A stretch of 23,124 nucleotides of DNA, taken from a virus. Shown piece after piece: positions 7,528 to 21,935 of this stretch (positions are counted from its first letter, which is position 1; every line of letters begins with the position of its first letter). Location of the stretch: positions 1-23,124 of IMG/VR virus record IMGVR_UViG_3300005095_000145; one strand, 5' to 3'. Both the position numbers and the translations under genes were made by a program. Under the pieces are notes generated by a model that was given only the letters and a program-made list of their open reading frames with translations, made no database searches and had not been told where the DNA came from.

Positions 7528-9279
7528 TTATTTTATCCAAAAAGAATCTAACGGCTTACGATTCTTTTTAATAGTCTGAGTCTGGGTTTGAGTTTGGTCT
7601 GGAGTCTGGGTCTGAGTTTGAGTTTGAGTCTGGGCATAAGGAAGTTTCTGAGAAATTTTAGCAAATAATCTCTTAGTTTTATCTAATTCTTTCTTACCGT
7701 TGAGATATGTATAAGGAACATAAGGTAGAACTGAATTTAAATTATCCTCAGCATTTTGAATAAGTTGTGATGTAAATCCAGAAAGAGATGCTAAAAATGA
7801 CTCTTTATTATTCCAATTACCTCCAGTAACTATCTCAGTTCTTCTCTCAAACTCTGCATCTGTTAATTGTTGTCCAGACATAGTTAAAATATAATCAGCT
7901 ATTTGTTGTCCTAATTTAGATTTAAATTGCCATCTTCTAAATTGTGCTAATAATTTTTCTCTATCTTCTGGATCATCTTTAGAAAGATATAAAGATCTAA
8001 AATTTGCTAATTTATTTAAATCGTCAGTAACTTTATACCAAGCATTACGTGGTAGGGATTCTGCTTCCTTTAGAAGTTCAGTAAATCTTTTAGCTAAAAT
8101 AGGAAGCTTCATTATCTGTTTTTTCTGATCTATAGGTATAGTTATGCCCTCTTTCTTATTTTGAGCCTCTATTTTCTTAGTTATAGCAAAAATCTCCTTA
8201 GGAACTCTGCGAGAAAGATCTATATATGGCAGAGTTTCAAGTAATCTCTGCTCAATTTCAGGAGATACAGGCTGATTATTTTTAAGTTTAGCTATAGTTT
8301 CTTTTAATTGAATCTCAGCTTTTTTAGTATCTAATTCAGCTTTTTTAACTTTTAATTGTTCTTTAATTACTTCATTTTGTAATTTTTGTTGTTGTAACTG
8401 AGCTTTTGGATCTGGATGTTTATTAGCATAATAAGTAAGAAAATCATCTATTGTAGCATTAGGATTCTCTTGTCTATATTTTTCATATTCCTCAAGTATA
8501 GCTTTAGGTTGAAGAGATTGAGCCTCTATTGCTGCTAAATCTGCTTCAGTTTTAGCAGGGTAGATATTTTGCTGATATTTAGCTTGAGCCTGCACAGCTT
8601 TGGCTTGTTCTTCTTTAGCCTCATAAATTTCAGGAACATCAAAAGCACCAGATAAAATATCCATCATCTTCTTAAGTCTCTTTTGAGCTGCTTCTCTTGT
8701 TTGCGAATCTACATAAGAATAAAAACCATTAGTATTAACTATATGAGGTGTAGGAACTATTTTAGTAGTTCCATCTGCAAGAACTGCTTTAAAATATAGA
8801 GATTGCAATGCTTTTTGCACATTAGGATCAGCTAATTTAGCTCTATTTAGTGGAAGTTTTTCAAGTTTCTCTATCTCATCTATATCTTCCTTTGAAAGAG
8901 GATCTATAGGTAATAGAGAATTAACTTGAAAAGCATCCACTAATCTCTGCTTAAGTATAGGATTATTTAGCAAAACTCTATTAGCATCAGATGCTCTCCC
9001 AGCTAAGAGATAAGCAGTTGTTGTGGTCATAGCATCTTTTGAGAGAAGATCTTCCATAACTTGAGATTTTTGAAGGGCAGTCATTAATTGTTGATTTAAC
9101 ATCTCTTCTTGAATAGCTAATGCTTTCATTCCTCTAATATTTGGGACATACTCTCCAGTTTGTGCATTAAGCTCAAAACCCTGCACATAATTTTTTAATC
9201 TTTGTTGCCTTTCTCTTCTAATATCAGTATTTCTTTCCATCCCAAGTCTAATGCCTTGAGAAAATCCTTCTAATGCCAT
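7528..9279 (-). CDS. 583-aa coiled-coil protein with a C-terminal TQ repeat
   Basis: I do not recognise this protein. It is Gln/Ala/Lys/Glu-rich and predicted mostly helical, with a long coiled-coil-like stretch at about residues 225-330 (QAKAVQAQAKYQQN and KLQNEVIKEQLKVKKAELD). Near the C-terminus are (TQ)4-5 runs either side of TPD, encoded by a GT/TC-rich simple repeat at about 7580-7640, then a basic end. Such proteins between small internal virion proteins and the portal are usually structural or ejected (compare T7 gp15/gp16 by position only). The ATG start begins MALEGFSQGIRLGMERN. The gap to the portal gene is only 10 nt, so they are co-transcribed. Confidence 0.75.
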   Translation of the reverse strand: MALEGFSQGIRLGMERNTDIRRERQQRLKNYVQGFELNAQTGEYVPNIRGMKALAIQEEMLNQQLMTALQKSQVMEDLLSKDAMTTTTAYLLAGRASDANRVLLNNPILKQRLVDAFQVNSLLPIDPLSKEDIDEIEKLEKLPLNRAKLADPNVQKALQSLYFKAVLADGTTKIVPTPHIVNTNGFYSYVDSQTREAAQKRLKKMMDILSGAFDVPEIYEAKEEQAKAVQAQAKYQQNIYPAKTEADLAAIEAQSLQPKAILEEYEKYRQENPNATIDDFLTYYANKHPDPKAQLQQQKLQNEVIKEQLKVKKAELDTKKAEIQLKETIAKLKNNQPVSPEIEQRLLETLPYIDLSRRVPKEIFAITKKIEAQNKKEGITIPIDQKKQIMKLPILAKRFTELLKEAESLPRNAWYKVTDDLNKLANFRSLYLSKDDPEDREKLLAQFRRWQFKSKLGQQIADYILTMSGQQLTDAEFERRTEIVTGGNWNNKESFLASLSGFTSQLIQNAEDNLNSVLPYVPYTYLNGKKELDKTKRLFAKISQKLPYAQTQTQTQTQTPDQTQTQTQTIKKNRKPLDSFWIK

Positions 9280-9299
9280 ATCTATCCTTTATGCTAAAT

Positions 9300-9926
9300 T
9301 TACTTCAACCAAGAGTCTAATGCACCATACGGTGAACGCTGTATAGTAGTAAAGTAACCACCTAATTTACCTATAGCATTTCCTATAGTATTATATTGTT
9401 GACCTAATGCTTGCCCATATCCTTGCATTGTAGTAGATAAATTAGCAGATACATTAGACATACCTCCAGCTATTTGAGTATTTTGACCTAAGCCAAGCCC
9501 AAGGAATTGTGATTTCATAGCCACTGCTTTATCTTCCGCATTAGCTTGAGATAAAGCTTTTTGAATCTCTCCTTGAAATGTAATATCCTTATAGAGACTT
9601 GCTTCTAATCCTGAATTAGCTATATGTCTTTGAGCCATCATTTGAGACAACTCTTCCTGCGTTTCTTGCATAGCTTTCTGGATAGCTTGCCTCTCTTTTG
9701 CTGAAATCTTATCGCCAGTCAGGTTTTTGAAGTAAGTTCCTAAATCTTCTTGGAGTGAGCCATAAACTTTATACCAATCTTTATACATCTGCTTATAAAA
9801 ATTAAGTTGCTCTTTTTGTATACCTACTGCTTCTTTATAAGCATCTGCCATTTTAGACATACCTTTATATTGATAATACCCTTCTATACCTCCAAATATC
9901 CCTCCAAGCAAATCACCAAATCCCAT
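9300..9926 (-). CDS. Internal virion/DNA-ejection-like protein, 208 aa
   Basis: The start MGFGDLLGGIFGGIEGYYQY is Gly-rich and amphipathic. A helical Gln/Lys-rich middle follows (KEQLNFYKQMYKDWYKVYGS; QEELSQMMAQRHIANSGLEAS), and then a Gly/Asn/Ser-rich tail (QGYGQALGQQYNTIGNAIGKLGGYF). This layout is common in podovirus internal virion proteins that pass into the host membrane during DNA ejection (T7 gp14-like or P22 gp7-like roles). The membrane-active ends fit that, but I have no homology proof. It lies in the leftward virion operon with a 1-nt gap after the upstream gene. Confidence 0.65.
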   Translation of the reverse strand: MGFGDLLGGIFGGIEGYYQYKGMSKMADAYKEAVGIQKEQLNFYKQMYKDWYKVYGSLQEDLGTYFKNLTGDKISAKERQAIQKAMQETQEELSQMMAQRHIANSGLEASLYKDITFQGEIQKALSQANAEDKAVAMKSQFLGLGLGQNTQIAGGMSNVSANLSTTMQGYGQALGQQYNTIGNAIGKLGGYFTTIQRSPYGALDSWLK

Positions 9927-9927
9927 T

Positions 9928-10302
9928 TTACAGCCTTTCTAAGTAATTTTTTTGAGTAAGTTTTGAAAATAATCTATCTATATGAGGTTCAAAAGTCTGT
10001 CCTATAACTATCTTTTTAGGAAACATAGCAAATAGATGATCTAAAAAAGTTTTAAAAAGATATCTATATTTAGGTAAGAGATAGATTTGAATTAAAAAAA
10101 TATATCTATCTGAGTGGGGTTTATAAGTAGCAAAGCCTATTAATTTAGATTTAAATTTAACTATTACTGTTTTTAAAGTAGGAGGTATATAAAAAGCTAT
10201 GTATCCTTTTGTAGAAAGATAGTAGTCAGCTACCAGGGGTATGATAGGATTATATCTATAAGGTAATGGTAATTCTATGAGTTTTAGTTGTTGAGACATC
10301 AT
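9928..10302 (-). CDS. 124-aa protein of unknown function, first gene of the virion operon
   Basis: Not recognised with certainty. The mixed alpha/beta pattern, with KTVIVKFKSKLIGFATYKPH, YIFLIQIYLLPKYRYLFKTF and KIVIGQTFEPHIDRLF, vaguely resembles small GNAT-fold phage proteins (beta strand, loop, beta strand, then a helix), but no acetyl-CoA-binding RxxGxG/A motif is visible. It opens the leftward operon, about 60 nt downstream of an extended -10 promoter. The ATGATG start is preceded on the - strand by AATAAGGTTAT, a weak AAGG ribosome binding site. Confidence 0.6.
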   Translation of the reverse strand: MMSQQLKLIELPLPYRYNPIIPLVADYYLSTKGYIAFYIPPTLKTVIVKFKSKLIGFATYKPHSDRYIFLIQIYLLPKYRYLFKTFLDHLFAMFPKKIVIGQTFEPHIDRLFSKLTQKNYLERL

Positions 10303-10369
10303 ATAACCTTATTGAAAATAGATCTATTTGTATGGGAGTTCTGGAAGAGTCCTATGTTATTGCTATTTT

Positions 10370-10378
10370 ATTATAGCA
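10370..10378 (-). promoter_or_regulatory. Extended -10 promoter for the leftward virion operon
   Basis: On the - strand the sequence TGCTATAAT is a perfect extended -10 element (TG-N-TATAAT). Transcription would start near 10363 and read through all the leftward virion genes. No good -35 box is visible, as expected for extended -10 promoters. It lies at the edge of the decamer repeat block. Confidence 0.55.
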
Positions 10379-10380
10379 TA

Positions 10381-10520
10381 TGAAGGAAATATTAGGAAGG
10401 AGTTGGAGATTAGTTGAAGTTATTAGGAATTTGAGGAAATTTGAAGGAAATTTGAGGAATCTGAGGAGATTTGAGGGAATTTGAGGAGATTTGGGGAAAT
10501 TTGAGGAGATTTGAGGAAAT
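10381..10520 (+). repeat. Decamer repeat array, consensus TTGAGGAGAT
   Basis: From 10431 to 10520 the sequence is nine copies of a 10-nt unit (TTGAGGAAAT, TTGAGGAGAT, TTGGGGAAAT and so on), with one 11-nt and one 9-nt unit that cancel out. More degenerate units extend left to 10381. A 10-nt period puts every copy on the same face of the helix, and the strand is purine-rich. It sits in the divergent intergenic region, so operator or origin functions are possible. There is no gene on either strand; the ORF at 10579-10776 is low-complexity. Confidence 0.85.
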
Positions 10521-10680
10521 TAATTAGAAATCTTCGAAATATTATGATACTCCGAAATCTTGGTAATATTGGAAATTATTGAAATCTGGGAAGTGTAGGG
10601 AATGGGATATATCCCCCGCTTACCCTCCCCTACCCTTCCTTGCAACCCCTTACATCTCCTCAAATTTCCCCAAATTTCCT
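10484..10680. repeat. 27-bp inverted repeat around the divergent control region
   Basis: Bases 10484-10510 match the reverse complement of 10654-10680 at 26 of 27 positions, so the decamer block reappears in opposite orientation. Between the arms is a perfect 12-nt palindrome (10604-10615, GGGATATATCCC) and a GC-rich pyrimidine run. The remaining part of this 624-nt gap (10681-10926) holds two TTGACACAT copies (10727, 10801) and two copies of CATATTATCTAATAT (10691, 10807). The second TTGACA (10801-10806), with TATATT at 10825-10830 (18-nt spacing), could be an additional rightward promoter. Confidence 0.8.
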
Positions 10681-10857
10681 AAAATTTTCTCATATTATCT
10701 AATATTTTGCTACATTTCCTCGAATTTTGACACATTTACCCACACTTTTTACCCAACTTCTCCTAATATTCTTTAATATTCATACCAAATCAACCAAATC
10801 TTGACACATATTATCTAATATACTTATATTTTTTAATATACTGCCTAAACACAAAAG

Positions 10858-10892
10858 ATTTAATTGAATTCTAAGCTAACCTTAGATATTAT
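10858..10892 (+). promoter_or_regulatory. Promoter of hairpin gene A (TCTAAG-type)
   Basis: The -35 is TTGAAT (10864-10869), then a 17-nt spacer and -10 TATTAT (10887-10892). The spacer is itself an inverted repeat, TCTAAG-N5-CTTAGA (10870-10886). The 18-nt block 10858-10875 matches the corresponding blocks of the gene B and gene C promoters at 16 of 18 positions each. The predicted leader is about 28 nt and ends with AGGAGG at 10915-10920. Confidence 0.7.
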
Positions 10893-10926: not shown

Positions 10927-12288
10927 ATGAATACTAAAACTAATACTAAATTAGAATTTAAGAGCACTTACTATGAAATAATAGTAAGTGCTCTAAGAGA
11001 AATAAATGAAAAAGACTACAACAGATTTTGTAGTCTCCCAATAGGAGGCTACAAAAGATTTAAAATATTAGAGGCAAATTTGCCTCTAATAGAGGCAAAT
11101 ATAAATAAATATATTGTAATTAAAAAGGAGGTAGTTGAGGCTTTTGCAGCCTATAACTACCTCAAAAAATTACCTCTACAAAGCTTAGACTTTGTAGAGT
11201 ATACTTTAGAATGTAGCAAAAGGGGGATAATTTCCCCTTTTGCTACTAAGAAAGATTTAGCAGTTTGGGACAAATTGTCCCAAACTGCTAATACATATAC
11301 TCTAAAAACTAAGGACGTGTCTTTTGAGCACGTCCTTAGTTTTTTAATAGAATATTTAGAAAGAGCCCCTAAGTGGGCTCTTTCTATTTTAAACAGTCTC
11401 CCTAAAGATTGGAGGGAGACGCACGACCTCTTAGTAGCTACTAAAAGGCTACTAAGAGGTCTTTATAATTTAAAAGAAGAGCATAAAGATATAAAATATG
11501 CTCTTCTTTTAAAAATTTATAAAAAAGGTCTACACAAAATAATTGTAGACCTTTTAAAATTAAGGAAAAGGGGAGACTTTACAAAAGTAAAGTCTCCTTA
11601 TTTAAAAAAGTTTTTAAAAGATCCGCACGCTTTTATAGAGCGTGGGGATCTTGTAAAAATTTGGTTAGAAGAAAAATTAGAGGGGATAGAGATCCCCTCT
11701 AATTTTGCAAAATCCATTCCTCTCTACTTAAATAATCTAAGTAGAGAGGATATTATAGAGATTGTGGAGTATGCTAATAAACATACTCCACAAAAATTTA
11801 AACTAAATTTACCAACCCTAAGAGTGGGTAGATACACTCTTAGGGTTGTGGATGAAGATGAATTCGAGAACTTGGCAGCCGGTTATATAACCGAATGCTG
11901 CCAAGTCCTCGAATATGCGGGGGAAAGCTGTATGAAAAAAGCCTATAAATCCCCGGATGCGGGGATTTTAGGCTTTTTTGAAAATGATAAGCTCATCGCC
12001 CAAAGTTACATTTGGGTGGATGAAGAGAATAAACTATTAGTATTAGATAGCATAGAGTGTGTAGCTAAAGTTAGCTACAGCTCTATAGCTAATCTAATAC
12101 TAAGATTAGATAAGGAGATATTTCCTTATCTAAATTTAAATATAGCCATAGGTGCTACATCATATGGCATTACGCCAAAAATAATAGAAAAATTAGGGGA
12201 TGCCGTTAAATACGAGATGTCCCCTAATCAAAGATATAACCCCGCGTCTTATACAGACGCGGATAAAGTTTGGGTAATAGAGAATTAA
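10927..12288 (+). CDS. Hairpin gene A: 453-aa protein encoded by tandem inverted repeats
   Basis: Function unknown. The first 300 residues are helical, Lys/Leu-rich and without recognisable motifs. The last 150 look like a folded domain: GRYTLRVVD at about 302, TECCQVLEYAGESC with C324, C325 and C335, then AGILGFF, AQSYIWVD at 358-365 and LVLDSIE at 371-377. I have seen a similar CC..G..C / AQS.hW / hDSIE pattern in uncharacterised phage proteins, but cannot name the family; PcfJ-like is a guess. The reading frame is intact despite the extreme secondary structure of the DNA, and codon use matches the phage, so it is translated or was until recently. The ATG follows AGGAGGTGCTAA (AGGAGG at 10915-10920, 6-nt spacing). 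The stop TAA sits in the centre of a perfect 30-nt palindrome. It is convergent with hairpin gene B. Confidence 0.85.
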   Translation: MNTKTNTKLEFKSTYYEIIVSALREINEKDYNRFCSLPIGGYKRFKILEANLPLIEANINKYIVIKKEVVEAFAAYNYLKKLPLQSLDFVEYTLECSKRGIISPFATKKDLAVWDKLSQTANTYTLKTKDVSFEHVLSFLIEYLERAPKWALSILNSLPKDWRETHDLLVATKRLLRGLYNLKEEHKDIKYALLLKIYKKGLHKIIVDLLKLRKRGDFTKVKSPYLKKFLKDPHAFIERGDLVKIWLEEKLEGIEIPSNFAKSIPLYLNNLSREDIIEIVEYANKHTPQKFKLNLPTLRVGRYTLRVVDEDEFENLAAGYITECCQVLEYAGESCMKKAYKSPDAGILGFFENDKLIAQSYIWVDEENKLLVLDSIECVAKVSYSSIANLILRLDKEIFPYLNLNIAIGATSYGITPKIIEKLGDAVKYEMSPNQRYNPASYTDADKVWVIEN

Positions 12289-12301
12289 TTCTCTATTACC
12301 C
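10961..12301 (+). repeat. Tandem hairpin array filling gene A
   Basis: Consecutive inverted repeats read by eye (outer limits; stem bp): 10961-10994 (14), 11026-11056 (13, one G-U), 11067-11090 (12, perfect), 11128-11163 (9+5), 11174-11199 (10), 11213-11246 (13), 11257-11291 (17), 11304-11344 (16), 11357-11386 (12), 11396-11420 (7), 11425-11461 (14), 11469-11513 (17), 11523-11555 (12), 11572-11597 (11), 11618-11652 (13, one mismatch), 11673-11706 (15), 11718-11750 (13), 11762-11793 (12), 11813-11848 (14), 11862-11914 (7+10+7), 11935-11979 (11+8), 11999-12016 (6), 12037-12103 (12+3+6+9), 12106-12133 (11), 12145-12168 (6), 12192-12228 (9), 12242-12262 (8), 12272-12301 (15). Roughly half of all bases are paired. 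Two groups contain a third copy of the arm (11014-11021; 11091-11100), allowing alternative pairing. Confidence 0.95.
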
Positions 12302-12357
12302 TTTTTATTTTTCCTATATATCATATTTTTTAATATCACATATAGGAAAAATAAAAA
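12272..12357. terminator. Terminator of gene A plus a shared bidirectional hairpin
   Basis: A perfect 30-nt palindrome (arms 12272-12286 and 12287-12301) carries the gene A stop codon and is followed by a T-rich run (12302-12312): an intrinsic terminator overlapping the CDS. A second stem, 12302-12319 with 12340-12357, is 18 bp and perfect. Its 20-nt loop contains a smaller hairpin (12323-12327 with 12332-12336). The second stem lies between the two convergent genes and can work in both directions. Confidence 0.8.
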
Positions 12358-12385
12358 AGCCTAAGTTCTAAACTTAGGCTTTTTT
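12353..12385 (-). terminator. Intrinsic terminator overlapping the end of gene B
   Basis: A 15-bp perfect stem (12353-12367 with 12371-12385) with a 3-nt loop contains the gene B stop codon (12361-12363) in one arm. On the - strand it ends in a run of six T. Six bases are shared with the 18-bp stem on the gene A side, so the two hairpins compete. Confidence 0.8.
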
Positions 12386-12831
12386 GAGATAATGTTTTTT
12401 AAGGACTTGCAGCAGCAGCAAGTCCCATCGCTACAAGGAACTTTTAGTTCCTTGTAGTTTTTTTGATAAAACTTTCTAAGGAACAAGAGTTCCTTAGAAA
12501 GATAATTTAGAGCCTCTAATCCATAGAGGCTCTCATTTAAAGAAGAACTCTTGCCCCATGGCAAGAATCCTATTTTTATTTCACTTTTATCAAGGGCAAT
12601 TTTTAATTGCCCTTGATTGTTATTATAGGCACTACCAATTGGTAGTGCCTCTTTAATATATAATTCACTTAAGAGCTTTATTAAAGCTCTTAAGTATTTT
12701 ATTTTATAGAGGACATCTAAAATGCCCTCTACTTCTAATAATTTCTCCTTTTTAGGAAGAAAGAGGTAAATCTCCCTCTTCCCTCCTAAAATCTCTTCTT
12801 TTAAAAAATTTAAAATCTCTACTCTTTCCAT
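12361..12831 (-). CDS. Hairpin gene B: 156-aa protein encoded by tandem inverted repeats
   Basis: Not recognised. The start is taken as ATG 12829-12831, eight bases after AGGAGG; the in-frame GTG nine bases upstream lies inside the ribosome binding site and cannot be the start. The protein is helical and Leu/Lys/Glu-rich (IKYLRALIKLLSELYIKEA; ALNYLSKELLFLRKFY). Near the C-terminus is the Cys cluster VPCSDGTCCCCKSL (C133, C138-C141), produced by a TGC run lying in the loop and arm of a hairpin; metal binding is possible but unproven. It is divergent from gene C, sharing a back-to-back promoter, and convergent with gene A, sharing terminator sequence. The same ribosome binding site (AGGAGGTGC) and promoter design tie it to A and C. 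Confidence 0.75.
   Translation of the reverse strand: MERVEILNFLKEEILGGKREIYLFLPKKEKLLEVEGILDVLYKIKYLRALIKLLSELYIKEALPIGSAYNNNQGQLKIALDKSEIKIGFLPWGKSSSLNESLYGLEALNYLSKELLFLRKFYQKNYKELKVPCSDGTCCCCKSLKNIISKKPKFRT
12403..12815 (-). repeat. Tandem hairpin array filling gene B
   Basis: Stems, in + coordinates (bp): 12403-12425 (8), 12431-12457 (12), 12472-12501 (13), 12509-12533 (10), 12549-12566 (7), 12589-12617 (13), 12627-12650 (12, perfect palindrome), 12667-12695 (14), 12707-12731 (10), 12751-12790 (16), 12799-12815 (7). Loops are 0-8 nt. The 12707 stem has one, and the 12751 stem two, positions that are A-C on the + strand but G-U in the - strand mRNA. These stems are therefore fully paired only in the gene B transcript. 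Confidence 0.93.
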
Positions 12832-12865
12832 TTTTTGCACCTCCTTAAAATTTAATTTATATTAG

Positions 12866-12900
12866 ATTATATCTATTATTTTCTTAGAATTTAATTAAAC
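12866..12900 (-). promoter_or_regulatory. Promoter of hairpin gene B (TCTAAG-type)
   Basis: On the - strand: -35 TTAAAT (12889-12894), TCTAAG at the start of a 17-nt spacer, and -10 TATAAT (12866-12871). The 18-nt block (12883-12900) matches the gene A block at 16 of 18 positions. The -35 abuts the gene C -35, so the two promoters are back to back within a dyad (TTCTTAGA at 12881-12888, TCTAAGAA at 12901-12908, with TTAATTAA near the centre). The leader is about 28 nt. Confidence 0.7.
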
Positions 12901-12923
12901 TCTAAGAATCTATCTACTATAAT
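12889..12923 (+). promoter_or_regulatory. Promoter of hairpin gene C (TCTAAG-type)
   Basis: The -35 is TTAAAC (12895-12900), followed directly by TCTAAG (12901-12906), 11 nt, and a perfect -10 TATAAT (12918-12923). The 18-nt block 12889-12906 matches that of gene A at 16 of 18 positions. The leader is about 25 nt and contains ATAGGAGGTGCA (12941-12952) just before the ATG. Confidence 0.72.
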
Positions 12924-12954
12924 ATAAATGTAATTAAATTATAGGAGGTGCACG

Positions 12955-13350
12955 ATGAATAAATTAATTTTAAATCTTAAAAGTCCTATCTCAATAAATA
13001 GGACTCAAAAATTATTGGAGCAAGTTTGCTCCAATATAGGTAAAAAATGGGCTATATGGTATAGCCCATCTAAGAATTTCTATTATGTCAAGATAAACGG
13101 GATATATAATCCCGTTTATCTTAATGATCTATTAAGGTTAGCTTCCTGGCTTAACCAGGAAGCTATCGCATACCAAATGGTATGCGATATCCACCATGCC
13201 AAAGGCATGGTGGGGTTAAAAGCGTGGAGATGGGAATTTATCCCATCTCTATTTACTAAGAAAGCTTCTAAAAAAAGAGGATTCGTCCTATTATCCACAC
13301 ATAAGACGAATCCTCCTAAAATAGATTATTCTATTATGCTCACCACCTAA
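12955..13350 (+). CDS. Hairpin gene C: 131-aa protein encoded by tandem inverted repeats
   Basis: Not recognised. It has an N-terminal beta/alpha-like pattern (LILNLKSPISINRTQKLLEQV, then KKWAIWYSPSKNFYYVKINGIY), a helical middle (LNDLLRLASWLNQEAIAYQMV), a CDIHHAKGM segment and a Trp-rich KAWRWEF. It lacks the charged helices of A and B. The ATG is 6 nt after AGGAGG (12943-12948), and the stop (13348-13350) lies in the loop of the final hairpin. The reading frame is open through ten hairpins, and the RBS and promoter are shared with A and B, so it is very likely translated. The antisense ORF at 13116-13298 is a by-product of the palindromes. Confidence 0.75.
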   Translation: MNKLILNLKSPISINRTQKLLEQVCSNIGKKWAIWYSPSKNFYYVKINGIYNPVYLNDLLRLASWLNQEAIAYQMVCDIHHAKGMVGLKAWRWEFIPSLFTKKASKKRGFVLLSTHKTNPPKIDYSIMLTT

Positions 13351-13364
13351 GCAGTGGTGGGCAT
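12982..13364 (+). repeat. Tandem hairpin array filling gene C
   Basis: Stems (bp): 12982-13005 (8), 13013-13036 (11), 13047-13069 (10), 13090-13122 (14), 13139-13165 (11), 13165-13188 (11), 13191-13213 (10), 13227-13249 (9), 13277-13315 (11), 13336-13364 (11, with one U-G pair in the mRNA). A small 5-bp stem lies at 13321-13334. Loops are mostly 2-6 nt, and neighbouring stems are almost contiguous between 13139 and 13213. Confidence 0.94.
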
Positions 13365-13417
13365 TAACTATCTTCTTTTTATTATCCTCCTCCATTCCCT
13401 CCAATTCCCTCTATTTC

Positions 13418-13595
13418 TTAATATAGGATATAAATTATTCATAATCTGAAACTTTTTAAAATTCCTTCATAATCGTTCAAAATTGCCTCTAAAATCCATT
13501 TTCTTATAACTACTGCTACCTTACCCTTAGTAAACCTCAAAAACCCTCAAATTTGGCTATTTATTAATATAGGATAGGAATTATTCATAATCTGA
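13418..13595 (+). repeat. Pair of 32-nt direct repeats
   Basis: 13418-13449 and 13564-13595 are identical at 30 of 32 positions (TTAATATAGGATA...TTATTCATAATCTGA). Just after the first copy (about 13461-13500) is a degenerate copy of the arm of the large hairpin at 15537-15668 (CCTTCATAATCG...GCCTCTAAAAT). Confidence 0.8.
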
Positions 13596-13609
13596 GAAAT
13601 AGCTATTGC

Positions 13610-13746
13610 TTTAGTTAGGTTTTGATGGAATCTGATGGAAATCTTTTGAATTTAGTTAGGTTTTGATGGAATCTGATGGAAATCTTTTGAATTTAGTTGG
13701 GTTTTGATGGAATCTGATGGAAATCTTTTGAATTTAGTTGGGTTTT
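13610..13746 (+). repeat. 41-bp tandem repeat, 3.3 copies
   Basis: Units at 13610-13650, 13651-13691 and 13692-13732, plus a 14-nt partial unit to 13746. They differ mainly at one site (TTAGTTAGG versus TTAGTTGGG). Each unit contains TGATGGAATCTGATGGAAAT, itself a short internal duplication. No role is evident; near-identity suggests recent expansion. Confidence 0.92.
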
Positions 13747-14158
13747 AGTCAGAAGTTTCCTGGATTCTGATAATAGTGTGTAAATTCGTAACAAATTTAA
13801 AATTATGTAGGGTGTCTTAAAATGATTTTAGTGAAATAAAAAATCTTATAATTTAATATAAAAATTTTTAATTTTCAATTATAAGAAAAACTTATAATTA
13901 AATCTTCGAATTACGACACCCAGCAGTATCCCTCTCAAGTCACTGATGTCCCATATATTGGTAGTTTATATTAAATATAAAAAATTTTAATTCTGTATTA
14001 TAAGAAAAACTTATAATTCTCAAGAGCAGTTAATCCCATTTTTTCATTATTTTATGGAAGAGTTAGATAACACAGTCCTGCTGTGATTGACCGGTGTGCT
14101 GAAAATTGCGGGAAAGTATAGATAAGATCTTGATGGTTAGGTTAAAGATCGAAAATTT

Positions 14159-14302
14159 TTGTATACCCCCACCGAAAATAGGAAGGGAGAGGCATCTTTT
14201 GCAATGGCTGGAAGATGCGATGAATTGAGAGGTGGAAAATGGATTCGGAAAATTTACTGGTGAAATTTTAACATACCCCATTGAAAATTTGGGGGTATAC
14301 AA
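14159..14302. repeat. 144-nt segment bounded by 12-bp inverted repeats (TTGTATACCCCC)
   Basis: 14159-14170 is the exact reverse complement of 14291-14302. Inside is a 7-bp hairpin (14192-14198 with 14212-14218). Just upstream is CACAG-TCCTG-CTGTG (14071-14085). Related GTATACCCC sequence recurs near 15190. It could be a folded RNA or a small mobile or regulatory element. The long - strand ORF here has no ribosome binding site and unnatural composition. Confidence 0.6.
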
Positions 14303-14369
14303 TTGTATAGGTTACCTTTTTTAGCGCTATCAACACGATTGAGTTATACAGACTTAACGTTAATGATTC

Positions 14370-14657
14370 GTTAACCTTTCGTTAATGGATGGTCAAAAAA
14401 TTTAGAAATGTTAGATAAATCCTGGTTAATCTTTTGTGAACATTTGTTCATAAGAATTCGAAATTTTTAGAAGACTTTTCTAAAGTTGAAAAATTTTTAA
14501 GTCAAACAGACTCAGAAGTATAGGGGTTTTAAAAAAAATGTGTGAAAAATGTGTGAAAAATATGTCAAAAATTCCGGCTAAATCACCTAAAAAATACTCC
14601 GATTTATACTCAAAGTTCGATGTAGTAGGCTCGGAAAAAGGTTAACGAAAGGTTAAC
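14370..14657. repeat. 16-bp inverted repeat GTTAACCTTTCGTTAA, with a third copy at 15205
   Basis: 14370-14385 is the exact reverse complement of 14642-14657, and a variant (ATTAACCTTTTGTTAACC) occurs at 15205-15222. Each site has two GTTAA half-sites 11 nt apart, spaced about one helical turn, as expected for a protein binding site. The interval also holds a small tandem repeat of AATGTGTGAA (about 14538-14561). Confidence 0.7.
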
Positions 14658-14691
14658 AGAGGTTGGGGGTAGGCGATACTTTAGCGTGTTG

Positions 14692-14812
14692 GGTCCTGCA
14701 AAAAAATCTTAGAATATTCAAATTTTTTAAAAGATTAATGAAAAGTTAATGAGATGTGTAAAAAATGTGATTTAGAGGGGTGTCTTAGAAACCCCCATTT
14801 TCGTGCAGGACC
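14692..14812 (+). ncRNA. Possible structured RNA closed by a 9-bp GC-rich stem
   Basis: GGTCCTGCA (14692-14700) pairs exactly with TGCAGGACC (14804-14812). Inside is a 5-bp GGGGT/ACCCC hairpin (14777-14781 with 14791-14795). It is one of the few GC-rich stems in an AT-rich noncoding region. No promoter or terminator is clear, so RNA status is speculative. Confidence 0.3.
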
Positions 14813-15410
14813 TGGTCAATTATAACCCCCCCGCACTATAAGAAAAACTTATAATTGTAGAGACTCGAAGAATTGGGAGGTGGAGAAGAAGCATTGTTAG
14901 GAGTGCTAAAAAGTTGTTTAAAACTAAGAAGGGGGTTTTTTGGAGGTTGTATAGTCTAAGAGGCTCTTAGGGTATACTATTTTGCTATTGAAAATGTATC
15001 AGGACCCCTATATAGCTATGTGCTGGTGTGTCTCAGAAGAAAATATTTATTACTGTTTACCTATTTGAAATATAAAAGTCAAAAAAATCAATATTTTGAA
15101 AATAATCCCATATATTGGGATAAAGAATTTCAATAAAACCATAAAATCATATTATTAACTTTTTAAAAATCTTAAAATTTAATATATTTGTATACCCCTA
15201 TGTTATTAACCTTTTGTTAACCAAACTGATATACCTTTTTAAAAACGACTTGTATAAAGAAATTTTTTAGCACCCTCGAACAAAAAAATGGGGTTATACA
15301 AACTTCAACTAACTTCGAATTAGATCAACAAATTTCAAAAATTCTTCTCCTTCCCCCAATTCAACAAATTTCAAACAAATCCCCACGATTCAAACCTCTG
15401 ACTACAACAA

Positions 15411-16045
15411 GCAAATAGCTCTAACCACAAGCAAATAGCTTTAATTCTAAGCAAATAACCAACTACAACAAGTGAATAGCTCTACAACAAGCAAATAGCC
15501 AACTACAACAAACAAATCTGTAATGTTATAGTTATTTTTATAATCCCTTCATAATCGCACAAAAACCCCTCTAAAATCAATTTTTATTTCTTACTAATAC
15601 CTACATAGCACTAAAGGATAAAAATTAATTTTAGAGGCAATTCTGTGCGATTATGAAGGGATTATAAATAAATATCCAAACCTCTGACTACAACAAGCAA
15701 ATAGCCTTAATTCTAAGCAAATAGCTCTAACCACAAGCAAATAGCTTTAATTCTAAGCAAATAGCCAACTACAACAAGCAAATAGCTCTAATTCTAAGCA
15801 GATAGTTAAGTTTCCATACAACTCTAAGCAGATAACTCTAATTACAAGCAAATAGTTACAACTCTGACTACAACAAATGAATAGTTACAACTCTGAGCAA
15901 ATAGCTTTAACTACAACTTCATTTATATTTTAATATTTCTCCAACATTGACTTTCATTTTATATTATCATAATATATTATCAATATTAACTTTAGAGAGA
16001 CATTAGATGGAGACTGAGTGAACCTCTGACTACAACAAGCAAATA
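15411..16045 (+). repeat. Iteron-like array, 20-nt period, core GCAAATAGC
   Basis: Core copies (GCAAATAGC and close variants) begin at 15411, 15431, 15451, 15472, 15491 and 15511 (block 1), then at 15697, 15717, 15737, 15757, 15778, 15798, 15828, 15848, about 15877 and 15897 (block 2), with a lone copy at 16039. Linkers alternate between types such as CTCTAACCACAA, TTTAATTCTAA and CAACTACAACAA. CTCTGACTACAACAA starts several groups. The 20-21 nt spacing is two helical turns, typical of iterons bound by a replication initiator. Block 1 and block 2 flank the large hairpin at 15537-15668. Confidence 0.88.
15537..15668. repeat. Large hairpin (25 + 19 bp arms) between the two iteron blocks
   Basis: 15537-15561 pairs perfectly with 15644-15668 (25 bp). 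After a 6-nt internal loop, 15568-15586 pairs with 15619-15637 (18 of 19 bp). The terminal loop is 32 nt. A third, degenerate copy of the arm is at 13461-13500. Placed between iteron arrays, it is a candidate origin structure or cruciform. Confidence 0.9.
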
Positions 16046-16102
16046 GCCATACAAATTCATAATGTTATAGTTATTCTTATATCCTCTTCATTATATCCTC
16101 TT

Positions 16103-16210
16103 CATCATATAGCTCCTGTTAAATTTTTATTATTGACATATTAATTATTTTTATTTTTTGTGATATAATTTTAATGTCAATAATAAAAATTTAACAGGAG
16201 CTATATGATG
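16103..16210. promoter_or_regulatory. Perfect 37-bp inverted repeat enclosing the KilA-N gene promoter
   Basis: 16103-16139 is the exact reverse complement of 16174-16210, with a 34-nt centre. The centre contains an extended -10, TGATATAAT (16161-16169), pointing to the gene. The right arm contains the start of the transcript, the ribosome binding site (CAGGAG, 16195-16200) and both candidate start codons. The inner ends of both arms are TTGACAT/ATGTCAA. TTGACA at 16133-16138 is 25 nt from the -10, too far to be its -35, and is better read as an operator half-site. A transcript entering from the left would fold the RBS into a 37-bp stem, whereas one started in the centre would not. Confidence 0.9.
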
Positions 16211-16825
16211 AAAACAAATCAAACAATGACGATCGATTTTAGTTTAGGGCAGTTACAAGTAAAGCATAAAACTGCAATGATTGAATTAGACGGATTTATT
16301 GAATTAGTAAATAAATATAGATTAAAAAGTGGATTAAAACAAATTCATTTCAGAGATTTAATGAAAAGAGATAGTATTCAGGAATTTATAACATTATTAG
16401 GAGATAAATGTTATATACCTCGTAAAGGTAGGGCAAAAGGATATCTTTCTCTTGAACTTGCAATTAGAATAGCAATAGATATGAGCCCGCATTTTGCAAA
16501 AGAGGTAATTCAGATATTCATCGAACATAAGATACTTCACTTGAGAGATATCTCTGGAGATAATTACATAGAATTAAATGCTATGTTGGCTCTAAAAGCA
16601 GAAGAAGTATTAGGAAAACCAGCACATAAGGGTCACTATATAAACATAGCTAAGAAGATAAAAGAAAGAGTATCTAAAGAATTAGGAGAAGTAGATAATT
16701 GGAATGTAGCTACTTCTGCACAATTAGCAGAGAGAACAAGGATAGAAGAAGCTTTAACAACTATGCTAAAAGCAGGAGTAGTCCATGACTGGGATCACTT
16801 AAAAGAATTAGTAGATAAGGTATAA
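16205..16825 (+). CDS. KilA-N domain protein (phage regulator/antirepressor type)
   Basis: A 206-aa protein. Residues about 22-112 match the KilA-N DNA-binding domain: IELDGFIELVNKYR, FRDLMKRDSIQEFI, then YIPRKGRAKGYLSLELAIRIAIDMSPHF, the typical KGR.KG..LA..lA...SP.F core. The C-terminal part (140-206) is helical and charged and not recognised. KilA-N proteins of phages act as DNA-binding regulators or antirepressors. The start is ATGATG; the second ATG (16208) is better spaced (7 nt) from CAGGAG, so either may be used. It precedes the primase/helicase gene by 33 nt and is probably co-transcribed with it. The long inverted repeat at its promoter could be its own operator. Confidence 0.82.
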   Translation: MMKTNQTMTIDFSLGQLQVKHKTAMIELDGFIELVNKYRLKSGLKQIHFRDLMKRDSIQEFITLLGDKCYIPRKGRAKGYLSLELAIRIAIDMSPHFAKEVIQIFIEHKILHLRDISGDNYIELNAMLALKAEEVLGKPAHKGHYINIAKKIKERVSKELGEVDNWNVATSAQLAERTRIEEALTTMLKAGVVHDWDHLKELVDKV

Positions 16826-16858: not shown

Positions 16859-19768
16859 ATGAAAGTATCTAAAATAATTTCACTACCCTTCTCTATTCAT
16901 AGAGATCCTAAGACTTCTAAAAAAATTTATAGGACACCTAACCAATCACATTTCTCACCTCCTCCATATAAATGGCTAAAAGCTCCCTCTTTAACACATA
17001 TAGTTAATCCACCAGCTTCACCATATTTATCATATGCTTTTATACCTTCTCAATTCCACTTAGTTATAGATTTCGATGATCTTTCAATCTACGACTCTCT
17101 ACCTAAACATATCTATAGCTATTTCTTAGAGACATTTCATTCAATAGATCCTCAAATTCTTTCTAAATCTCTATATCATCCGTCTCATATCTATTTTAAA
17201 CAGACTTCATATTTTAAAAAACATTTCACTCAGCCTAATAGAGAACACATAGCCTCAGTTAAAATAGATATTCTCAAGGGAAATTCCTTGATTTTCTTGC
17301 CATATCCAAATAATCATACTAAGACTTTGCATCCTTCATACCTTTCTAATTATCCTCTTTTAAATTACAACAAAATCCCTACTCAATTTATTACATCTCT
17401 AATGCTTCCTATTCCTAATGAGGTAGTAGATTATTTGTTAGAACTAAAAGGTATTACTCCTACTTCTTCTTTTTCCTCTACTTCTTCTACATTCCCTACC
17501 TCTTCTCTTATTCCTCCTAATCCTTTTATATCTGCAGATGTAGAAGGATATTACTCTTATCTCCTCTCAAATATCGACTATTCTAATCCAGATTTTAGTT
17601 CTATTAAACAAATTCTTAAAGATATAACACCTAATAGATTTAAAAGTTTTCTAAGGAAGCATATCTACTCTCCAAATGCTATTCCAGAAGGAGAAGGAAT
17701 AGCTTATCTGCAGGCACTTATCTCTAAATTAGGACAAGATAAGACTTTAGATCCTTTACTTATAGCTAAGTTTATAGTTATAATAACACTAAAGCTCTGG
17801 CAGAATCCATTGCCAATAGATAGATTAAAGACTTGGTTGCACTATCTACCTAAACAACATTATTCTGATGGTAGTGCTGTTATAAAATATATGGATACAT
17901 TAACTAATAAAGAGGAGTATATGGAAGACTATAGAGAAAAGATTAATAATTATATCACTCAGTTACAAAATGTAATAACAGCTAAAGAATCTCAAGACAA
18001 ATCTCAAGATCATCCTCAGGATCATTCTCATTCTCAAAATCCAAACCATTTCCAAGACCAAGCTCAGTCTCCAGACCAATCATTAGATGGTTTAAAACTT
18101 CAATACACAGAAGAGGAACTCTCTGATCTTATAGTGAGACCTTACTCCTCTCCTATGAAAGATATAGTTATTCTATTTAAAACTAACTCTAATAAATTCT
18201 ATACAGTTCATCTCTTTATCCACGATAATAACTATTATTTAACAATCCCTGCCTTAAGAAGGGTATTAGTTAAAGCTAATAGCATTACTTCAGTATTCAA
18301 TTATTTTAAATTATCAGAATTAGAGATCTTTAAAAGATCTACTCTTAACCCTGATATTTTTATAAGAGTGCCTAAGAAAATAAAAATAGAAATATTTAAA
18401 AAACTCTTTACTTCTAATATTCCAGCAGTTATTAATCTTTTTAAAGATATCTCTTCTCCTAATGGTTTTCAGATCTCTGAGGAAGGGATTAATATCTATA
18501 ACATTCAACCACCTCAAGGAAAATTTAGAGATTATCTTCTTGCTAAATATGGAGTAGACTCAGACAACACTCACTTAGAAATAGTTAAAGCAGTTAAATC
18601 TAAATTTAAATTATTCCGCTCAGATGTAGAAGCTCTTGAGTATGATAAAGAGATTTTGCAGCGTCTAAAAGAAAAATTACCTAATTTTTATCTTCTCTTA
18701 ACATCTCTAACTGTAGATAATGCTCAATTTTATGGTAGAACATCTCCTGATTACACAAGACTTTTGACTAATATCTTATATTTTTTCTATTATAAAGCAT
18801 TAACTTATGCTTACTCTCCTATTGTATTTCAACTCTCAGGAAATTATGGGACTGGTAAAGATACTATAATAGACTATTATCTTAAAACAATATTCTCAGA
18901 TATTGGGATAATTTCTAATCAAGATTCTAAATCATCTTTTAACTCTCATTACATTACTAAAGCAATAGTTAAAATAGAAGAAGCTTCAAGAGTTAAAAAT
19001 ATGATTAATTTTGTTAAAAAATTATCTGGATCTCAATTTCTTATTTATAATGAAAAAGGAAAACCTCAATTGAGTGTCAGGAATATTCTAACTCTCTTTA
19101 TTACTACAAATGAACCATATGTTGCTATTGAACATAAAGATGATAGAAGACTTGTGTTATTATCTTCTTTTACTGGTTCTAATATTATCAACAATCCTGA
19201 CTATTCTATAGAAGGAGTAATGGAAGAATGTGGGATGTATAGTGATTCTATACCTCCTATAATAGAATTTCTAAACTCTATAGAACTTCCAAGAAGAGTA
19301 GAGCTTATTTATTCTAATGCTGTAAATTGGGGAAGGAGTTTTAGAGATACTGCCTTTAGAGATGAGCAGACTTTATCAACAGGAGCAGATGAGGCAGTTC
19401 TCTTAAAAAATCATATAATGGAACTTCATAAGTATCTTCTAAATGGAGTAAATGTAAATGAGTTAGATACATTTAAAGAAGTATTAGATAATATAGCTCA
19501 ATATTATTATTTAGATCCACATAAAGGAGTAGTAATACTTCCTATTTATAAACCACATTTAAAACATACCCTACGCTTAGAGGAGATTATTAATAATCCT
19601 TCTATAATAGCAATAAGAGAAGCTGGACTTAGAAATTATGTTAAAGATAAAAAATTAAATGTTTTTAATAAAAAATTTCAAGCTTTAGAATTTACTATTA
19701 ATGAGTATGATTTTTATAAAAATAGAGTACTTGAGGCATTTAAAGAAAGGTTATTAAAATTAGAATAA
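16859..19768 (+). CDS. Primase-polymerase / SF3-type helicase (D5-like replication protein)
   Basis: A 969-aa replication protein. The C-terminal ATPase has Walker A GNYGTGKDT (G661-T669), a Walker B-like IVKIEEAS (E707/E708), FITTNEPY (747-754, sensor/motif C) and DDRRL (761-765, probable arginine finger). This set is typical of phage D5/DUF5906-type SF3 helicases, which unwind origins as hexamers. The N-terminal 200 residues look like an AEP primase-polymerase: LVIDFDD with D71/D73, and VKIDIL with D137. The histidine motif between them is weak (PSHIYFKQT), so primase activity is less certain. Two low-complexity linkers (about 200-222, Ser/Thr/Pro; about 378-410, SQDxxQD-type) separate the modules. 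An AAGGAGA ribosome binding site precedes the ATG. Confidence 0.85.
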   Translation: MKVSKIISLPFSIHRDPKTSKKIYRTPNQSHFSPPPYKWLKAPSLTHIVNPPASPYLSYAFIPSQFHLVIDFDDLSIYDSLPKHIYSYFLETFHSIDPQILSKSLYHPSHIYFKQTSYFKKHFTQPNREHIASVKIDILKGNSLIFLPYPNNHTKTLHPSYLSNYPLLNYNKIPTQFITSLMLPIPNEVVDYLLELKGITPTSSFSSTSSTFPTSSLIPPNPFISADVEGYYSYLLSNIDYSNPDFSSIKQILKDITPNRFKSFLRKHIYSPNAIPEGEGIAYLQALISKLGQDKTLDPLLIAKFIVIITLKLWQNPLPIDRLKTWLHYLPKQHYSDGSAVIKYMDTLTNKEEYMEDYREKINNYITQLQNVITAKESQDKSQDHPQDHSHSQNPNHFQDQAQSPDQSLDGLKLQYTEEELSDLIVRPYSSPMKDIVILFKTNSNKFYTVHLFIHDNNYYLTIPALRRVLVKANSITSVFNYFKLSELEIFKRSTLNPDIFIRVPKKIKIEIFKKLFTSNIPAVINLFKDISSPNGFQISEEGINIYNIQPPQGKFRDYLLAKYGVDSDNTHLEIVKAVKSKFKLFRSDVEALEYDKEILQRLKEKLPNFYLLLTSLTVDNAQFYGRTSPDYTRLLTNILYFFYYKALTYAYSPIVFQLSGNYGTGKDTIIDYYLKTIFSDIGIISNQDSKSSFNSHYITKAIVKIEEASRVKNMINFVKKLSGSQFLIYNEKGKPQLSVRNILTLFITTNEPYVAIEHKDDRRLVLLSSFTGSNIINNPDYSIEGVMEECGMYSDSIPPIIEFLNSIELPRRVELIYSNAVNWGRSFRDTAFRDEQTLSTGADEAVLLKNHIMELHKYLLNGVNVNELDTFKEVLDNIAQYYYLDPHKGVVILPIYKPHLKHTLRLEEIINNPSIIAIREAGLRNYVKDKKLNVFNKKFQALEFTINEYDFYKNRVLEAFKERLLKLE

Positions 19769-21763: not shown

Positions 21764-21935
21764 TTTTTAAGATTTTATCTGTTATAATTACAACAGATAT
21801 CGGGAATTTCCCGATGAGATCTTTAAAAATCCAATGTTAGCTCTGAGATGAGGGGAGATTTTAATGCACCTCCTATATTTCCATAACCTCCTCCTATCTC
21901 CCCTCTTCTCAGGGCTAACCTGAAAATCTTAGAAA
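21764..21935 (+). ncRNA. Structured RNA element/leader with anti-Shine-Dalgarno-like loop
   Basis: A closed multi-hairpin fold is visible. The outer stem pairs 21764-21776 with 21923-21935 (13 bp, one G-U). Inside are hairpins 21776-21783 with 21792-21799 (8 bp), 21799-21806 with 21808-21815 (8 bp) and 21836-21858 with 21897-21919 (23 positions: one G-U, one mismatch). The last has a 38-nt, largely unpaired loop with TGCACCTCCTAT (21865-21876) and ACCTCCTCCTAT. The first is the exact 12-nt complement of the gene C ribosome binding site and matches genes A and B over 11 and 10 nt. TATAAT at 21783-21788 could start a shorter RNA. It may act in cis on the next gene or in trans. Confidence 0.6.

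Follow-up and report, generated by a model that had tools for sequence, protein, structure and literature searches.

A perfect 39-bp inverted repeat at the start of a KilA-N-like phage gene: a candidate translational silencer of read-through transcripts

We find that the predicted promoter and start codons of a KilA-N-like gene in a tailed phage are spanned by a 39-bp perfect inverted repeat, and we propose, with moderate confidence, that this repeat acts in cis as a translational silencer of read-through transcripts. RNA polymerase would start at a promoter in the spacer between the two arms, giving an mRNA that begins at the spacer-side end of the right arm. Lacking the left arm, this local mRNA would keep its Shine-Dalgarno sequence (SD) and AUG open and would be translated. 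A transcript started further upstream would carry both arms and form a perfect 39-bp helix burying the SD and both start codons; such read-through RNA would yield no KilA-N protein, and its helix might also be cut by RNase III. KilA-N synthesis would thereby be tied to the local, host-type promoter.

The window (the whole stretch of DNA that was analysed) is a 23,124-base virus record, a fragment of a tailed phage whose gene set includes a P22-like portal, terminase large subunit, amidase and class I nrdB, and which also encodes a gp2.5-like ssDNA-binding protein and a primase/helicase-like protein. Because the phage NrdB is 67% identical to the proteins of one Sulfurovum and one Campylobacteraceae genome, the next in the scan being about 32% or less, the host is likely to belong to the Campylobacterota, an assignment that rests on nrdB, a single gene that can be acquired. 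Searches of viral contigs using KilA-N alone, the terminase alone or the arm pattern found no close relatives of the phage. The KilA-N gene was absent from the examined DNA of 80 terminase-aligned loci (at most 50% identity; ten as whole records), and none of 397 genomes from the class of a Sulfurovum genome gave a KilA-N match.

The gene itself (16205..16825, + strand, 206 aa) starts at ATG 16205 or 16208 behind an SD, AGGAG, at 16196..16200 (+ strand), and is KilA-N-like as judged from its sequence, matching phrog_6095 with E 3.7e-31. Homologues of the protein occur in Vibrio and Salmonella phages. The window protein falls under the cut-off for Pfam PF04383 (E 0.054, 13.8 of 23.8 bits), and a 35% identical homologue from Vibrio phage 1.054.O passes it (E 6e-8, 32.9 bits). 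Homologues in Salmonella and uncultured phages (loci L006, L009, L204 and L205) are often single genes on the strand opposite to the structural genes, and their placement in these four loci is cargo-like; several relatives are annotated as 'amidase', a label for which the analysis gave no support. Downstream of KilA-N lies the primase/helicase-like gene (DUF5906; 16859..19768, + strand; PF19263 E 6e-12).

The original prediction described two 37-bp arms, 16103-16139 and 16174-16210, as exact reverse complements around a 34-nt centre, and the left arm as an antisense copy of the ribosome binding site (RBS) and start codons. Both statements were confirmed, the right arm containing the SD AGGAG and the ATGs at 16205 and 16208. 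The perfect arms run two bases further outward on each side, giving 39 bp (16101-16139 / 16174-16212), and if three internal mismatches are allowed they extend to 48 nt (16101-16148 / 16165-16212, 94%). The right arm (16174..16212, + strand), with the stretch ATGTCAATAATAAAAATTTAACAGGAGCTATATGATGAA, corresponds to the predicted 5' UTR, the SD and both KilA-N ATGs, and its outer edge lies just beyond the second ATG; the left arm (16101..16139) is the exact reverse complement of all of these. Between them, the 34-nt spacer that would form the loop (16140..16173, + strand) holds the promoter core, an A/T-rich tract followed by an extended -10.

For spacers of up to 300, this is the longest perfect inverted repeat in the window; the next two have 25 and 22 bp. 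Sixty simulated first-order Markov sequences with matching composition reached no more than 17 bp, and the longest perfect arm in 1.09 Mb of other phage loci (spacer up to 100) was 22 bp. A 39-bp inverted repeat is far beyond chance. An assembly or amplification chimera is unlikely, because a fold-back would continue past 39 bp, where the complementarity ends and the outer flanks are unrelated. We also rejected an intrinsic terminator, as no U-run stands behind either arm: AAAACAAATC follows the right arm and, on the other strand, AGAGGATATA follows the left. At the gathering threshold, no known RNA family matched the repeat.

The extended -10 box in the spacer, TGATATAAT (16161..16169, + strand), is a motif match to the Campylobacter jejuni consensus TGxTATAAT. 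About 89% of C. jejuni promoters show periodic A/T-rich sequence and no clear -35, followed by TGxTATAAT (PMC3656092), and transcription starts 4-8 nt past the -10 (PMC3847290). By its motif, the spacer would therefore carry the main promoter type of the Campylobacterota, whose activity and start we infer here. Taken with the C. jejuni spacing, the position of TGATATAAT puts the predicted start at about 16175-16177, next to the spacer-side end of the right arm (16174). No extended -10 occurs in the spacer in the leftward direction; the one present is on the + strand. A TTGACA in the left arm (16133-16138) was rejected as a canonical -35, lying 25 bp from the -10. Across the window, TGNTATAAT sites are neither rarer nor commoner than chance (4 found, 3.1 expected); one of the four is in the spacer and two more stand at expected promoters, at 10370 (upstream of a leftward operon) and 21780 (upstream of the ssb-like gene). 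The TGNTATAAT boxes at 21780-21800 and 10360-10380 lie within short inverted repeats (ATCTGTT-AACAGAT and GCTAT-ATAGC), which are possible operators and could be chance.

We compared the predicted folding of read-through and local transcripts. A read-through RNA (16095-16240) folds with -59.6 kcal/mol (z -13) and an SD unpaired probability of 0.000 in silico, whereas an RNA starting at 16175 has no greater structure than its shuffles. The predicted cost of opening the RBS is 34-35 kcal/mol (35.4) for transcripts starting at or upstream of 16101, and about 2-3 kcal/mol (2.4) for those starting at 16120-16185; shuffling the left arm brings the mean cost to 7.4 kcal/mol. One of the functions suggested in the original prediction was an insulator that prevents read-through transcripts from being translated. 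The anatomy (a host-type -10 and a start at the arm edge) and the folding (35.4 versus 2.4) speak for it, although the principle turns out to be already known. The RBS of the primase/helicase-like gene opens at 7.4 versus 6.4 kcal/mol and is unchanged by upstream sequence. Because that gene is served by an RBS of its own that shows no such change, it could remain readable on read-through RNA, and the block would be specific to KilA-N.

To place this effect on a common scale, we took the difference in RBS opening cost between a 150-nt leader (read-through) and a 30-nt leader (local). The difference is 33.0 kcal/mol for KilA-N, 19.3 and 18.0 for two other genes in the window, B and C, and at most 3.5 kcal/mol for the other window genes tested. 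Among 600 gene starts from 81 other phage loci, the median was 0.4, the 99th percentile 7.2 and the maximum 12.9. The fifth-ranked of these background cases is an HNH-type endonuclease ORF in an insert interrupting the nrdB gene of locus L002; it resembles the sequestration seen with T4-type intron endonucleases, which suggests that the measure detects sequestration of the intended type. In this locus (IMGVR_UViG_3300028030_000011, an uncultured phage; 9020-10858), nrdB is split after codon 56 by about 825 bp, and the insert, probably a group I intron, holds the HNH-type endonuclease ORF at 9278-9790 with its RBS partly sequestered.

Genes B and C are divergent, with complementary RBS regions and TATAAT boxes of both strands between them (12831..12957), following the same logic as KilA-N. 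Opening their RBSs costs 21.3 versus 1.9 kcal/mol for B and 21.0 versus 3.0 kcal/mol for C (read-through versus local). The RBS core GGAGGTGC is common to both genes in the intergenic region 12841-12955, and the near-palindrome TTCTTAGAATTTAATTAAACTCTAAGAA mid-way between them may be an operator. As independent proof of selection for insulation, however, the pair is weakened by the background. The strongest background cases, two homologous scaffold-like genes at 7059 of L054 and 7133 of L055 (both - strand), also have an RBS sequestered in long transcripts and a TATAAT in the loop, and on reading the sequence these too, like B/C, resemble divergent pairs whose RBSs are alike. Two similar RBSs placed back to back can produce sequestration as a side effect. 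KilA-N differs from B/C in having no gene behind the left arm, an extended -10 on the + strand only, and complete identity between the arms.

The region of genes A-C (10927-13370) is also rich in smaller palindromes. Of the window's 41 perfect short-loop hairpins (arm 9 or longer, loop 12 or shorter) it contains 33, which cover 975 of 2444 bases in coding sequence, and a terminator-like scan gave 27 there against 3.4 expected. In Nematomorpha mitochondria, perfect inverted repeats have been described inside protein-coding genes (PMC6649704).

Silencing of this kind presupposes transcripts that enter the repeat from upstream. Read-through from gene C or from the non-coding region beyond it is plausible, because no rightward terminator-like site occurs between 12695 and the KilA-N gene; rightward transcription of the 2.7-kb non-coding region is itself putative. 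This region (13350-16100), which holds no convincing gene, contains iteron-like ACAAGCAAATAGC repeats, a tandem repeat with 41-nt spacing at 13610-13746 and a second long hairpin at 15537-15668 (51-nt arms, 90%), and it looks like an origin or regulatory region. The second hairpin tells against a silencer, in that it stands before no gene, so that a role in translation cannot be assumed for long hairpins in this region. The possibility that the hairpin is a trait of the KilA-N family was rejected, since none of the 18 relatives with a usable upstream region has a sequestering hairpin at its RBS.

The left arm is probably a newcomer, copied from the right arm by a template switch. The stretch before it (16048-16094) is a diverged copy of 15509-15555 (81%). 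Two related copies, at 13453-13502 and 15535-15584, stay alike for about 30 bases past a common CTTCAT, whereas in the copy beside the KilA-N repeat the likeness ends close to where the left arm starts; this suggests, modestly, that the arm is the later arrival. Two tandem copies of TTATATCCTCTTCA (16077..16104) adjoin it, and the last TTCA of these forms the first four bases of the left arm, a possible fitting microhomology at the copy junction. In replication, one template-switching event can create a perfect stem (PMC8794818); the hairpins described in that work belong to microRNA and rRNA genes, whereas here such an event is proposed for a phage leader. We infer either that a recent template switch made the left arm or that repeated switching keeps the arms identical. 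Under an extended form of the latter, active switching would maintain the identity of the arms and might flip the loop, a mutational process rather than selection for pairing would maintain the silencer, and the same process would have built the hairpins of genes A-C; we consider this improbable. A shared palindrome-generating process had been raised in the original prediction, and it survives to the extent that the same type of template-switch event could make both, but the KilA-N repeat differs in shape. The perfect identity of the arms makes this locus useful for following the formation and retention of palindromes in phages.

The main rivals to a silencer are a replication-origin function and a neutral, recent palindrome. 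As DNA, the repeat could be part of an origin, a single module comprising the iteron-like repeats, both long hairpins and the primase gene, where KilA-N may bind. The iteron-like repeats at 15393-16051 agree with this, as does the primase/helicase-like nature of the next gene. Also in its favour, the sequence in front of the KilA-N hairpin has a diverged copy, and the second long hairpin (15537-15668) comes after that copy. However, an origin does not require arms that match a 5' UTR and start codons, and the coarse GC-skew profile has sign changes in the area but nothing sharp; we regard this reading as unlikely. Alternatively, a recent template switch may simply have made an inverted copy of the gene's 5' end, with no or nearly no selection. 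All 39 of 39 pairs are Watson-Crick, as expected from one recent copying event, and such events are known to yield perfect hairpins (PMC8794818). The tandem repeat ending in TTCA offers microhomology at the outer junction, and genes A-C demonstrate many perfect palindromes in this genome. Nothing, however, would make a neutral copy end at the predicted transcription start, where the inner edge lies, and neutral long palindromes tend to be lost, which leaves this account rather unlikely.

The remaining alternatives fare less well. Were the arms two operator copies through which the KilA-N protein represses its own promoter in the spacer, the position of a DNA-binding protein gene beside a symmetrical promoter region would be the usual layout of autoregulation, and KilA-N-type proteins are DNA-binding by family. 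Yet a dimeric site needs far less than two perfectly symmetrical 39-bp arms set 34 nt apart, and 14-mers of the arms (up to 1 mismatch) recur in the window no more often than those of shuffled arms, so that the operator option of the original prediction now appears quite improbable. We think it very improbable that a divergent gene, of the kind seen in the B/C pair with its complementary RBS regions, once lay here and left its 5' region behind as the left arm. Read leftward, the arm does still present an RBS and ATGATG, but no leftward gene stands behind it, the frame stopping after five codons (MMKRI); the spacer lacks a leftward extended -10, and the 100% identity over 39 bp compares with 74% over 53 nt in B/C. 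The idea of an invertible promoter, in which the spacer would flip between the arms and switch KilA-N on and off, drew on a directional promoter motif flanked by inverted repeats, whose TATAAT would point left after inversion. Against it, a 34-nt spacer is very short for site-specific recombination, no recombinase was found among the proteins of the 23-kb fragment, and there is no leftward gene to switch on. Template switching is known to invert loops, though rarely (PMC8794818), and we give a switch of this kind almost no credence.

A silencer of read-through transcripts has known counterparts. In phage T4, long transcripts of gene e started upstream hide the SD and AUG in a helix, and shorter ones from a promoter just upstream of the gene are translated; the leaders of I-TevI, I-TevII, I-TevIII, segB and the phage Aeh1 mobE gene are similar (PMC3014915; PMC2988022). 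In Bacillus subtilis, a very large hairpin (20+ pairs) has been proposed to block translation of read-through RNA of sigG, and it cannot form on RNA from sigG's own promoter (PMC5942855). Silencing has been demonstrated for gene e of T4 and for I-TevI; for the other phage genes and sigG it has been proposed. If the KilA-N repeat works as we propose, start-site hiding of the T4 type would also be used by a phage with a P22-like portal and a probable Campylobacterota host, there combining a host-type promoter in the loop with a long perfect helix. Expression of a KilA-N-type protein, a kind of protein about whose part in phages little is known, would be tied to one promoter, and the locus would provide a clean two-transcript test case.

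As in the gene e and I-Tev leaders, the promoter is placed, here by motif, such that local transcripts lack the 5' strand of the helix. In the T4-type systems, however, local transcription usually starts from a phage late promoter, and it is early messages that are silenced. Here the motif is of the host sigma-70 type, so silencing would fall on messages made at other times or started elsewhere. The T4 cases concern lysozyme and homing endonucleases and the best of them have been measured, while the present one concerns a KilA-N-type gene with a perfect 39-bp helix and was analysed in silico. The sigG gene, for its part, is a bacterial chromosomal gene behind a known operon that is the source of read-through, whereas KilA-N is a phage gene. 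We conclude that the KilA-N hairpin is best explained as an unusually strong member of this known regulatory kind.
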